Positions 27,664 through 33,372 of a DNA stretch of 33,514 bases are shown piece after piece; the stretch's first letter is position 1, and the number at the start of each line of letters is the position of its first letter. The stretch spans positions 1 to 33,514 of the forward strand of contig WAKM01000009.1 of NCBI GenBank assembly GCA_015523335.1. The letters are read 5' to 3'. The notes beneath the pieces are model-generated. The model was not told the origin of the DNA, ran no database searches, and saw nothing but the letters and a program-made list of their open reading frames with translations. The stretch is from Archaeoglobaceae archaeon. Lineage in GTDB: Archaea; Halobacteriota; Archaeoglobi; Archaeoglobales; Archaeoglobaceae. The position numbers and the translations under genes were made by a program.

Positions 27664-27975
27664 ATGGTTTTGAGGAAGTTGAAACAAGAGGCGGAAGTAG
27701 CGCTCAGGCACTTGGAGATTCTCGACCTCGTCGAAAGAAATCAGCCGATCGGAATATTCAAGCTTGCGGAGATGATCAAACTACCGAAGCACAAAGTAAG
27801 ATACTCTTTAAGAGTTTTGGAGCAATCTGGAATAATAGAACCGACTCAACACGGTGCTATGGTCAGAGAGGACGTCGGTGAGGTCTTTGTGAAGTTGAAG
27901 GAGGAGATTAGGAATATCAAAGATATCGTTGAAAGAATTGAGAAAAAGATAGACGAACTATGCTCCCGATTGTAG
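27664..27975 (+). CDS. Small winged-helix transcriptional regulator-like protein
   Basis: A 103-residue protein. Residues 13-70 form a winged helix-turn-helix (LRHLEILDLVERNQPIGIFK, LAEMIKLPKHKVRYSLRVLE, SGIIEPTQHGAMV), followed by a coiled-coil tail (VFVKLKEEIRNIKDIVERIEKK). The family is a small archaeal predicted regulator. The ATG at 27664 is preferred to one at 27619 because the TATA at 27635-27644 is centred 24-25 nt before it. It overlaps the BtpA-family gene by 16 bp. The tail probably makes it dimeric. DNA target unknown; its own operon is the obvious candidate. Confidence 0.82.
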   Translation: MVLRKLKQEAEVALRHLEILDLVERNQPIGIFKLAEMIKLPKHKVRYSLRVLEQSGIIEPTQHGAMVREDVGEVFVKLKEEIRNIKDIVERIEKKIDELCSRL

Positions 27976-28718
27976 GTGTTGTTCATTTAAAACCCCTTCC
28001 CGGCTCTCCGAACTATTCGTCGTTCGATTACGTTTTGGAATCGGCTTTGGAAGATGCGAAGGCTTTGGCTGAAGGTGGAGTAGATGCGATAATCGTCGAA
28101 AACTTCGGAGATAAGCCTTTTTTGAAAAATGTGGGTTGTGAAGTGGTTGCATGCATGAGCGTTGTGGCTTGGGAGATTAAAAAAGAGACCGGCTTGCCTT
28201 TGGGTATAAACGTGCTCAGAAACGATCCCATTTCAGCCCTTGCGATTGCAAAAGCGGTTAAAGCGGACTTCGTTAGGGTCAATCAACTTTTCTATGCTTC
28301 CCTTTCCCCAGAAGGATGGCTCGAAGGAACGGCTGGGGAGGTGCTTAGGTATAAGAGAGCCATAGACTGCAACGCCATGATATTTGCGGACATCTTAGTC
28401 AAGCATGCCCACCACTTCACTGATTTGGAGGAATACGTTGAAAATGCGGAAAGGTGTTTGGTCGACGCTTTAATAGTCACCGGCAAAGCGACGGGTGAGG
28501 AAGTAAGCTTGAGTGAGCTTAAAGCAGTCAGAAGGCTGGCAAAAATGCCCGTGCTCGTGGGAAGCGGTGTAACGCCCGAAAATCTTCCAAAATTCGCGAA
28601 ATACTGCGACGGATTTATAGTGGGGACTTATTTTAAGAAGCGCGGCAGAATCGATGTCGAGAGGGTTAGGAGGCTCGTGAAGGTTAGGGAGCTCATAAGT
28701 AGAGGAAGTTCACTATGA
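27960..28718 (+). CDS. BtpA-family TIM-barrel protein
   Basis: A 252-residue BtpA/SgcQ-like protein: VGVVHLKPLPGSPNY, GVDAIIVENFGDKPF, CMSVVAWEIKKETGLPLGINVLRND, RVNQLFYASLSPEGWLEG, and MPVLVGSGVTPENLPKFAKY with FIVGTYFKKRGRID. The pattern of strands fits a phosphate-binding TIM barrel. Cyanobacterial BtpA affects photosystem I stability, but archaeal members must have another role, possibly as a sugar-phosphate or nucleoside enzyme. The start lies in the 16-bp overlap with the wHTH gene. Its 3' end overlaps the convergent glutaminase gene by 26 bp. Confidence 0.85.
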   Translation: MLPIVGVVHLKPLPGSPNYSSFDYVLESALEDAKALAEGGVDAIIVENFGDKPFLKNVGCEVVACMSVVAWEIKKETGLPLGINVLRNDPISALAIAKAVKADFVRVNQLFYASLSPEGWLEGTAGEVLRYKRAIDCNAMIFADILVKHAHHFTDLEEYVENAERCLVDALIVTGKATGEEVSLSELKAVRRLAKMPVLVGSGVTPENLPKFAKYCDGFIVGTYFKKRGRIDVERVRRLVKVRELISRGSSL

Positions 28719-29229
28719 TTTCCCTATTGAGGACTTCTGGATGGAAAGAAACGCCGTAGAAATCCCTGTCTTTTACTTTAAACATGCAAATCTCCTCATC
28801 CTGCATCGCCAAAGGAGTAAGCTTTTCGTTCACACTTCTCAAAGCGTATCTGTGTAGGAAGTATGCTCTCGTTTCTCTTTTAATTAGCGGATTTTCCCTT
28901 ACAATTCTGACTTTGTAAACGCCGATCTTCTTAATTTCTTCCAAGGCGTTCAAGAAAAGCCTTGCAAGTATCTGGTATCCGGCGCATATTCCGAGAACCT
29001 CTCCATCGTAGTCCGTCAAATCCGTGAATTTATCTACGTGGTTTAGGTAATCGAAGTCGCGCAGTGCCGTTCCGCATACTATTATCTTGGAATAATCCTC
29101 GATTTTTATTCTTTCATAGTATCTCCTAACGTGATAGTCGAATCCGCAATCCCTCACGATCTCCGCGATCGGTCTTACGAATTCCTCCTCGCTCAGCGAA
29201 TACTTGCAGGTTGAAATTACCAGTATCAT
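28693..29229 (-). CDS. Class I glutamine amidotransferase (GuaA glutaminase-like), stand-alone
   Basis: A 178-residue stand-alone GATase. The nucleophile elbow is LGICAGYQIL (Cys82) and the His-Glu pair is SFHPE (His163, Glu165), so the catalytic triad is complete. It resembles the glutaminase subunit of archaeal split GMP synthase but is shorter than usual and divergent, without a GuaA ATP-PPase gene next to it. Its 5' end overlaps the PP-loop ATPase gene by 4 bp, with the ATPase upstream, so the two are translationally coupled. Glutaminase plus PP-loop ATPase is the logic of GuaA, suggesting ammonia transfer to the Dph6-like partner. True guaAA is a weaker alternative. Confidence 0.82.
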   Translation of the reverse strand: MILVISTCKYSLSEEEFVRPIAEIVRDCGFDYHVRRYYERIKIEDYSKIIVCGTALRDFDYLNHVDKFTDLTDYDGEVLGICAGYQILARLFLNALEEIKKIGVYKVRIVRENPLIKRETRAYFLHRYALRSVNEKLTPLAMQDEEICMFKVKDRDFYGVSFHPEVLNREIIVNFLYL

Positions 29230-29894
29230 TTCTCCACGAGCTCCGCCCTCTTCACGATCATAGTTGCGTCGTAATCCTTTCCGACGATTTCGGATTCCGA
29301 TATTTTAAGCTTTTTTTTGAACAGCGGCATGTCCAAAACGAGCGTCTCGTATTCCCCGCCTTCCCCGGCTGGATTGATGTAGCCGTGTCTCTCTGCGAAT
29401 TTCCGGACGATATCCTTAGTTAGCTTTTTACCGAGCATCGACTTATCCAAGCCGGCAACCCTAACGAAGATTATCTCGAATCCGAACTCCAGAGCTTCGT
29501 TTAAGATCGAGATCTCGTCTCTGAGCCATAGCGGATTGAAGCACCAAAGCTCCAAATTGTCGCAGATCTTCTGAAACCTCGTGGCTTGGTATGTAGACCT
29601 AATAGCTCCGGTAACCACACCTTCTACACGATAAAACTCCTTGGCTTTTCTAAGCGCATCGTAAAGCGCCTTTAGACTACTTCTCTCATCATCCGAGCAC
29701 GTTTCCATGATCAGAGGTATACCCAGCGATTCCGCTTGAAGCTTTACGAGTTCCGTATTTGGATAATGGAAAATCGTGCTTTCTTCGGATTTGGGACTGA
29801 GCGTTACTAAGCAAGAAACTTCAAACTCCTCGCGAGCCTTCAGAAGTGCCAAGTTTGAATCCTTACCTCCCGAGTATAGAACGCATACCTTCAT
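29226..29894 (-). CDS. Dph6-like diphthine-ammonia ligase (PP-loop ATPase)
   Basis: A 222-residue PP-loop ATP pyrophosphatase. The SGGKDS loop is at residues 8-13, and the Dph6 family signature NPAGEGGEYETLVLD lies near 174-188, with FVRVAGLDKSMLGKKL before it. Dph6 amidates diphthine to diphthamide on archaeal/eukaryotic EF2, using ATP and ammonium. The open frame extends to 30095, but the ATG at 29894 is chosen: it matches the family N-terminus (MKVCVLYSGGKDS) and a TATA (minus TCTTTATCGC, 29915-29924) is centred 25 nt before it. It overlaps the glutaminase gene by 4 bp (29226-29229). Divergent from DNA ligase. Confidence 0.85.
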   Translation of the reverse strand: MKVCVLYSGGKDSNLALLKAREEFEVSCLVTLSPKSEESTIFHYPNTELVKLQAESLGIPLIMETCSDDERSSLKALYDALRKAKEFYRVEGVVTGAIRSTYQATRFQKICDNLELWCFNPLWLRDEISILNEALEFGFEIIFVRVAGLDKSMLGKKLTKDIVRKFAERHGYINPAGEGGEYETLVLDMPLFKKKLKISESEIVGKDYDATMIVKRAELVEK

Positions 29895-31923: not shown

Positions 31924-33372
31924 TTAGATGTCCAAATACTTCATGAACTCCCAAGGTGTGATGTATAGGCAATACTGGTTCCACTCGTCGGTCTTTATGC
32001 TCATGAAGGCGTCGAAGATGTGGCTTCCAAGAACCTTCTGCAAAACTTCGTCGCTCGCCAAGCATTCGAGGGCATCTCTAAGCGTTGTTGGCAACTCTCC
32101 AACTCCGAACTCCTTCTTCTCTTTCGGTGATAGCTCGTAGACGTCCTTCATCAACGGGTCGCCGGGATCGATCTTCTTCTTGATTCCATCCAAACCAGCG
32201 GCGAGCATCGCTGGAATAGCCAAGTATGGGTTGCAGCTCGGATCCGCTCCTCTGTATTCGACTCTGATTGCGGAGGGCTTCTTGAAGTAAACCGGAACTC
32301 TAACCAATGCTGATCTGTTTCTCGGGCTCCAGCAGATGTAGATCGGAGCCTCGAATCCCGGGACGAGTCTCTTGAATGAGTTAACTGTCGGACAGCAAAG
32401 GGCTGTTAACGCTTTTGCGTGCTCGAGCAATCCGCCGATGTAGTATCTTGCGGTCTGGCTCAAGCCGAACTCGTCATCCGGATCGGCAAAGAGGTTCTTG
32501 CCCTTGAAAGGCTCGCCCTCCCAGAGACTTTGGTGGGTGTGCATTCCGCTCGCGTTGTCCAAGTAAAGCGGCTTGGGCATGAAAGTTGCTATGAGTCCCA
32601 TCATCTTTGCAACGTTCTTGGCGGCGAACTTGTAGAGGTAGAAAGCGTCACCAACCTCGACGACCTGCTTCGGCTTGAAGTCCAACTCTACCTGTCCGGC
32701 TGTAGCAACTTCGTGGTGGTGGTATTCGATCGTGACGCCCAGCTGATCCAAGTAGTGAACGAGGAGGTTTCTGTATTCAACTGTCGTATCTTCCGGCGGA
32801 GGTCTGAAGTAACCTTCTTTCGGTCTGATTATGAAGTTATTACCAGCCATGATCTCCGGGCTTTCCGGCATAACCCTCGGCGGACCCCACGAATCTCCGG
32901 CACCGCCGTTTGGAGAAACCCAAAGATCCCATGCGAGCATCGTAGGATCGATGCTTTCGAAAACGAAGAACTCGATCTCCGGTCCAAAAATCGCTGACTT
33001 TCCTTCTTCCTTGAGTTGCTTCTCAAGTCTCTCCGCAACGTATCCTCTCGGATCGCACTCCGCAAGCTGTTCTCCGCCAGCCTCGTAAACGTTACCGAAC
33101 ATTATGGCGGACTTCTGAATCGGGTCGTCGATCCACGGAATCACTCTCAGAGTGCTCGGGTCCGCCTTCCAGACCATGTCGCTCTGCTCGATGGTCTTAA
33201 AGCCTCTTATGGAAGACCCGTCAAAACCGATTCCCTCGAAGGCGTCGCCCTCGATGAACTCCCTCGCCGGAATCGAGAACGTCATAAGATATCCTCTGAC
33301 ATCCGGAAAAGCGCAGAGGACTTGCTTAACGTTGTTTTCCTCCAAAATCTTCTTCGCCTGCTCAACGTCCAT
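31924..33372 (-). CDS. glnA: Glutamine synthetase, type I
   Basis: A 482-residue GSI that makes glutamine from glutamate, ammonia and ATP. Recognised segments are GIGFDGSSIRGFKTIEQSDM, IFGPEIEFFVF, YHHHEVATAGQVELDFK, DNASGMHTHQSLW, LVPGFEAPIYICWSPRNRSA and VEYRGADPSCNPYLA. A segment corresponding to the E. coli adenylylation loop (KDVYELSPKEKKE) has a Tyr, but adenylylation is not known in these archaea. The ATG at 33372 has an AAGGTGATGGG ribosome binding site. TATA ATTATATAGC (33414-33423) predicts a leader of about 20 nt. It is slightly longer than typical GSI because of an archaeal insert around residues 150-200. Confidence 0.97.
   Translation of the reverse strand: MDVEQAKKILEENNVKQVLCAFPDVRGYLMTFSIPAREFIEGDAFEGIGFDGSSIRGFKTIEQSDMVWKADPSTLRVIPWIDDPIQKSAIMFGNVYEAGGEQLAECDPRGYVAERLEKQLKEEGKSAIFGPEIEFFVFESIDPTMLAWDLWVSPNGGAGDSWGPPRVMPESPEIMAGNNFIIRPKEGYFRPPPEDTTVEYRNLLVHYLDQLGVTIEYHHHEVATAGQVELDFKPKQVVEVGDAFYLYKFAAKNVAKMMGLIATFMPKPLYLDNASGMHTHQSLWEGEPFKGKNLFADPDDEFGLSQTARYYIGGLLEHAKALTALCCPTVNSFKRLVPGFEAPIYICWSPRNRSALVRVPVYFKKPSAIRVEYRGADPSCNPYLAIPAMLAAGLDGIKKKIDPGDPLMKDVYELSPKEKKEFGVGELPTTLRDALECLASDEVLQKVLGSHIFDAFMSIKTDEWNQYCLYITPWEFMKYLDI

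Follow-up and report, generated by a model that had tools for sequence, protein, structure and literature searches.

Architecture of the locus

The window, i.e. the whole 33,514-nucleotide stretch of Archaeoglobaceae DNA that was analysed, carries two overlapping genes on its (-) strand. The upstream one, dph6 (29226..29894), encodes a 222-residue diphthine-ammonia ligase (Dph6) of the archaeal type, assigned with TIGR03679, PF01902 and its tree position in the clade of glutaminase-paired Dph6s; its ATG start is backed by homologues. The gene that follows (28693..29229) encodes a class-I glutaminase (GATase) subunit of 178 residues, identified with PF00117 and an AlphaFold model, for which we propose a role as ammonia donor for Dph6. 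The end of dph6 and the start of the glutaminase gene share the 4 bp of an ATGA stop/start overlap (29226..29229), an arrangement that suggests translational coupling of the two genes.

Three motifs mark the Dph6 protein: the PP-loop SGGKDS (29856..29873), the signature WCFNPLW at residues 117-123 (29526..29546), which is specific to glutaminase-paired Dph6s, and GEGGEYE at residues 177-183 (29346..29366), whose glutamates are invariant. The glutaminase has the catalytic Cys82 (28984..28986) and His163-Pro-Glu165 (28735..28743) and, near its N terminus, the family motif LSEEEFVRP (29170..29196), in which Glu16 is conserved in 77/77 and Pro20 in 76/77 sequences; all these features lie on the (-) strand. 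A preliminary description of this DNA had claimed a 178-residue GATase with a Cys82/His163/Glu165 triad, overlapping by 4 bp a 222-residue PP-loop ATPase with the Dph6 signature. Both claims hold, with the triad intact and both SGGKDS and GEGGEYE in place.

The 3' end of the glutaminase gene also overlaps, by 26 bp, a convergent gene of the BtpA family (27960-28718). A putative glutamine synthetase gene (31924-33372) is found about 2 kb from the pair, with a DNA ligase gene in between; it is not a common neighbour of the pair in other lineages.

Conservation of the gene pair across archaea

A phylum-wide profile search of 394 Halobacteriota genomes revealed the glutaminase in 72; of these, 60 belong to families other than the Archaeoglobaceae, which are taken to be methanogens. 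In each of the 72 genomes, Dph6 is encoded immediately upstream on the same strand, in one case with a 1.4 kb insert; three sets of inspected loci contributed 12, 18 and 15 of these pairs, and 27 come from comparing the coordinates of the glutaminase and Dph6. The family Archaeoglobaceae is represented by 55 genomes, of which 12 carry an orthologue: in 11 it directly follows Dph6, and in the twelfth, a MAG, a TnpB/IS605-like ORF of about 1.2 kb separates dph6 from the glutaminase gene (L043:3721-4884), which is the insert mentioned above. Strong glutaminase matches (E below 1e-34) also occur in about 70 of 371 genomes of the phylum of the DPANN archaeon AR15. Of the 48 DPANN loci inspected, 45 have a dph6 gene no more than 2.5 kb upstream in the same orientation, and at one of the other three (L117) the contig ends there. 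Named bearers of the pair include Woesearchaeota, Nanoarchaeota, an Aenigmatarchaeota MAG and a Geothermarchaeota genome. Of 77 pairs, 64 retain an overlap of exactly 4 bp.

Chance does not account for pairing on this scale, and the conserved adjacency that the preliminary description had proposed to look for extends across archaeal phyla. A local accident of one MAG can be rejected, since the pair is kept in Archaeoglobaceae, methanogens, DPANN and the Geothermarchaeota genome. Membership in a larger operon can likewise be rejected: neighbourhood comparison revealed no third gene common to Archaeoglobaceae, methanogens and DPANN as a whole, and the genes inserted within DPANN pairs (HicAB-like, GNAT and exonuclease-like ORFs, among others) are mutually unrelated. 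Dph5 is not among the genes inserted between dph6 and the glutaminase gene. Most archaea have a Dph6 without this glutaminase partner, and the partner is therefore not strictly required for the amidation chemistry.

Identity and predicted activity of the glutaminase

The window glutaminase scores 46.5 bits against PF00117 (cut-off 22.8), and in the profile search it reached the cut-off of no functional equivalog model. Its AlphaFold model has a mean pLDDT of 96 and, among solved structures, most resembles the A subunits of archaeal GMP synthases, with a TM-score of about 0.85. With GuaAA as its best match by both profile and fold, the protein might be read as a GuaAA working with a remote GuaAB. 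Its score against the GuaAA model NF001975 is nevertheless only 43.9 bits, for a cut-off of 198, and a true GuaAA (287.7 bits) is encoded elsewhere in the genome, on contig C40. Moreover, the tree places the paired glutaminases in a clade of their own, which does not include the GuaAA, TrpG and HisH proteins from the window's genome. We therefore reject the identification as GuaAA, and a partnership with a remote GuaAB is extremely improbable; the case raised in the preliminary description, that this might be the only guaAA of the genome, does not apply. The two-subunit archaeal GMP synthetase, which has the closest fold, is nonetheless instructive as an analogue: there too, a class-I glutaminase subunit serves a PP-loop ATP pyrophosphatase, although with another partner and with XMP as the substrate.

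Nine class-I GATase domains are encoded in the window's genome. The best matches of most of the others are the carbamoyl-phosphate synthase small subunit, TrpG, GuaAA, CTP synthase, HisH, PdxT and PurQ, and one further domain belongs to an unassigned glutamine amidotransferase.

Among the paired glutaminases, Cys82 is conserved in 77/77, His163 in 74/75 and Glu165 in 75/75 sequences. Judged by these intact catalytic residues, the window glutaminase looks active. Two glutaminase loci depart from the common pattern. In a near-complete genome (G015, L015:1501-2043), the catalytic His is replaced by Tyr (FYPEV) in a gene that is otherwise intact and paired. In a MAG of the same genus as the window's (81% complete; L016 and L047, G036:C96), a frameshift or stop interrupts the glutaminase reading frame near codon 120, which may be an assembly error.

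Identity of the Dph6 and the diphthamide pathway

The window Dph6 scores 225.4 bits against TIGR03679, the archaeal Dph6 equivalog (cut-off 197.3), and PF01902 is the sole domain above its cut-off in the 222 residues. It is the only PF01902 match in a genome that is 99% complete, so the second dph6 that the preliminary description had suggested looking for is absent by this profile. It resembles the classical archaeal Dph6 (TIGR03679; PF0828/PH1257; DUF71/COG2102) over the whole enzyme domain, including the PP-loop, the EGGxxE motif and the EF2-facing residues. Indeed, Y102, Q103, E178, E181 and E183, the counterparts of PF0828 Y103, Q104, E183, E186 and E188, which are modelled as facing EF2, are invariant in the alignment of paired Dph6s. 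The difference is that the window protein belongs to a separate clade with the WCFNPLW signature, whose members always or almost always have a dedicated glutaminase gene behind them, whereas the classical proteins stand alone.

Two other placements were considered for the window Dph6. In the B12-salvage subgroup of DUF71, the motif ENGE(F/Y)H replaces EGG(D/E)xE; the window protein has GEGGEYE, and EGGE is invariant in the paired family. The AsnB-Dph6 fusions have class-II glutaminase and Asn-synthetase domains, neither of which is present in the window protein.

The pathway context was compared across 64 genomes that carry the pair, and Dph2 is present in 61 of them. A search of the window's own assembly (G000) recovered Dph5 but no Dph2. 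The sister genome G037 has its dph2 in a region about 8 kb long to which no DNA of the window's assembly corresponds, and the adjoining flank is on contig C52. The absence of Dph2 is likely to be an assembly or binning gap. The C52 segment (G000:C52:1-8301), beside a tRNA-like sequence, carries DUF1102 and signal-peptidase genes; at the equivalent site, the sister genome (L094) has genes for KaiC, an aminotransferase, a wyosine-type radical SAM protein and Dph2, which are missing from the window's assembly. In six DPANN genomes (G397, G398, G400, G402, G403 and G406), Dph2 appears split, with profile positions of about 1-60 and 62-285 encoded apart; the pieces are near each other in G402, whereas elsewhere they are far apart or located on different contigs.

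These data bear on the substrate of the pair. The glutaminase could feed a Dph6-like enzyme that amidates something other than EF2-diphthine, as part of the DUF71 family no longer acts in making diphthamide (the B12-salvage subgroup discussed in PMC3541065), the paired clade has its own signature, and Dph2 is missing from the window's assembly. We consider this unlikely: TIGR03679 matches each of the 40 paired Dph6s compared with it, with the window protein above the cut-off, the paired protein is usually the sole Dph6 of a genome in which Dph2 co-occurs, and the residues modelled as EF2-facing are unchanged throughout the paired family. Of the two options left by the preliminary description, a glutamine-dependent diphthamide synthetase is thus favoured over an enzyme for another substrate, as judged from the sole PF01902 member passing the archaeal Dph6 cut-off.

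Co-inheritance of the glutaminase with one Dph6 clade

In a 127-row tree of Dph6 proteins, the 77 paired Dph6s lie on one side of a single branch in 100% of 200 bootstrap trees; with shuffled pairing labels, 39 changes would be expected on the same tree. The paired Dph6 of Archaeoglobaceae groups among those of DPANN pairs, and the lone Dph6s of other Archaeoglobaceae are found elsewhere in the tree. Four genera (g3, g48, g53 and g87) include some species with the pair and others whose Dph6 stands alone and belongs to an unrelated branch. In these genera, gain or loss of the glutaminase is therefore also a swap of the Dph6 type.

The signature of the paired clade is most pronounced at C118 and N120, each present in 75/77 paired versus 0/43 lone Dph6s; W117 is less strict (60/77 paired Dph6s). 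In the Dph6 model, residues 117-119 form part of the last strand of the ATPase domain and N120 is at the strand end, so that, by analogy with the general PP-loop fold, WCFNPLW would be located near the active site. One genome (G372) encodes a Dph6 of the paired type, with CFNPLW, that has no glutaminase gene behind it (L175, G372:C21:26724-27389); the next gene looks unrelated. This genome provides a natural test of the need for the glutaminase partner.

The lineage adjoining the paired clade includes the Dph6s that carry GAT-II and Asn-synthetase domains as fusions, although the fork is not firm (support 96/58). This lineage, together with the tree as a whole, bears on a further explanation, in which the glutaminase is a mere operon neighbour that passes no ammonia on and instead regulates Dph6 or hydrolyses some other gamma-glutamyl compound. 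Class-I GATase folds do include gamma-glutamyl hydrolases, and these are also among the fold matches of the glutaminase model. Nevertheless, the pairing persists where unrelated genes have been inserted and where all the rest of the gene order has changed, it tracks one Dph6 clade, and a glutaminase of another class is fused to Dph6 in the neighbouring lineage, which makes a simple neighbour relationship improbable.

A proposed two-subunit diphthamide synthetase

We propose that the pair is probably a diphthamide synthetase of two subunits that depends on glutamine and follows the design of the two-subunit GMP synthetase. The small class-I glutaminase would hydrolyse glutamine with its Cys82-His163-Glu165 triad and pass the ammonia to its partner Dph6, which would activate (adenylate) the carboxylate of EF2 diphthine with ATP and then amidate it. 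The two subunits would form a physical complex with an ammonia tunnel between them, and EF2-diphthine would be their substrate. The proposal is based on the intact catalytic residues, the near-obligate overlapping pairing across phyla, the co-inheritance and the pair-specific Dph6 signature. The archaeal Dph6 score of the genome's sole family member, the Dph2 genes of most pair genomes, the Dph5 of the window's genome, the GMP synthase A-like fold and the fusions of other Dph6s to class-II glutaminase or RidA domains also speak for it. Counted against it are the many archaea whose Dph6 works without this partner, G372, which lacks the glutaminase behind its paired-type Dph6, the replacement of His163 by Tyr in L015, and the lack of a Dph2 in the window's assembly. 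In many archaea, a dedicated glutaminase behind Dph6 thus probably hands over the ammonia.

It is also fairly likely, if somewhat less so than the proposed activity, that this widespread pair spreads horizontally as a unit, displacing the stand-alone, ammonium-using Dph6, and that archaea recruited a glutaminase to Dph6 at least twice, as a class-I enzyme in an operon and as a class-II enzyme in a fusion. One and the same kind of PP-loop enzyme would then have acquired its glutaminase in different ways.

The catalytic parts of the pair are known, and within the open-licence literature we found no published description of their combination or of a glutaminase partner of Dph6. The ammonia source for diphthamide has been suggested to vary, and class-II fusions and RidA domains are named in this context (PMC3541065); the ammonia-source section of that paper does not name a class-I glutaminase. 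No curated NCBI model names the paired glutaminase family, and annotators would gain a name for a family that resembles GuaA. A conserved class-I partner in dozens of archaeal genera would directly answer, for those lineages, the question of the physiological nitrogen donor of diphthamide synthesis, and the pair would offer a ready assay of this donor.

Two related systems have been discussed in terms of ammonia supply. Fungal and plant Dph6s carry C-terminal RidA domains with a suggested role in ammonia generation, which was posed as a question in the 2013 yeast paper (PMC3585130). They resemble the present pair in having an auxiliary part suggested for ammonia supply, but the domain is of the deaminase type and fused, and no glutaminase is involved. 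The AsnB(GAT-II)-Dph6 fusions of Methanosarcinales, for which a role in ammonia supply was proposed (de Crecy-Lagard 2012, PMC3541065), are closer, with a glutaminase genetically tied to Dph6 in the neighbouring lineage of the Dph6 tree. They differ in that a class-II (Ntn) glutaminase and an Asn-synthetase domain are fused to Dph6, whereas here a separate class-I glutaminase is encoded in an operon. Among the genomes sampled here, class-I pairs and class-II fusions never occur in the same family.
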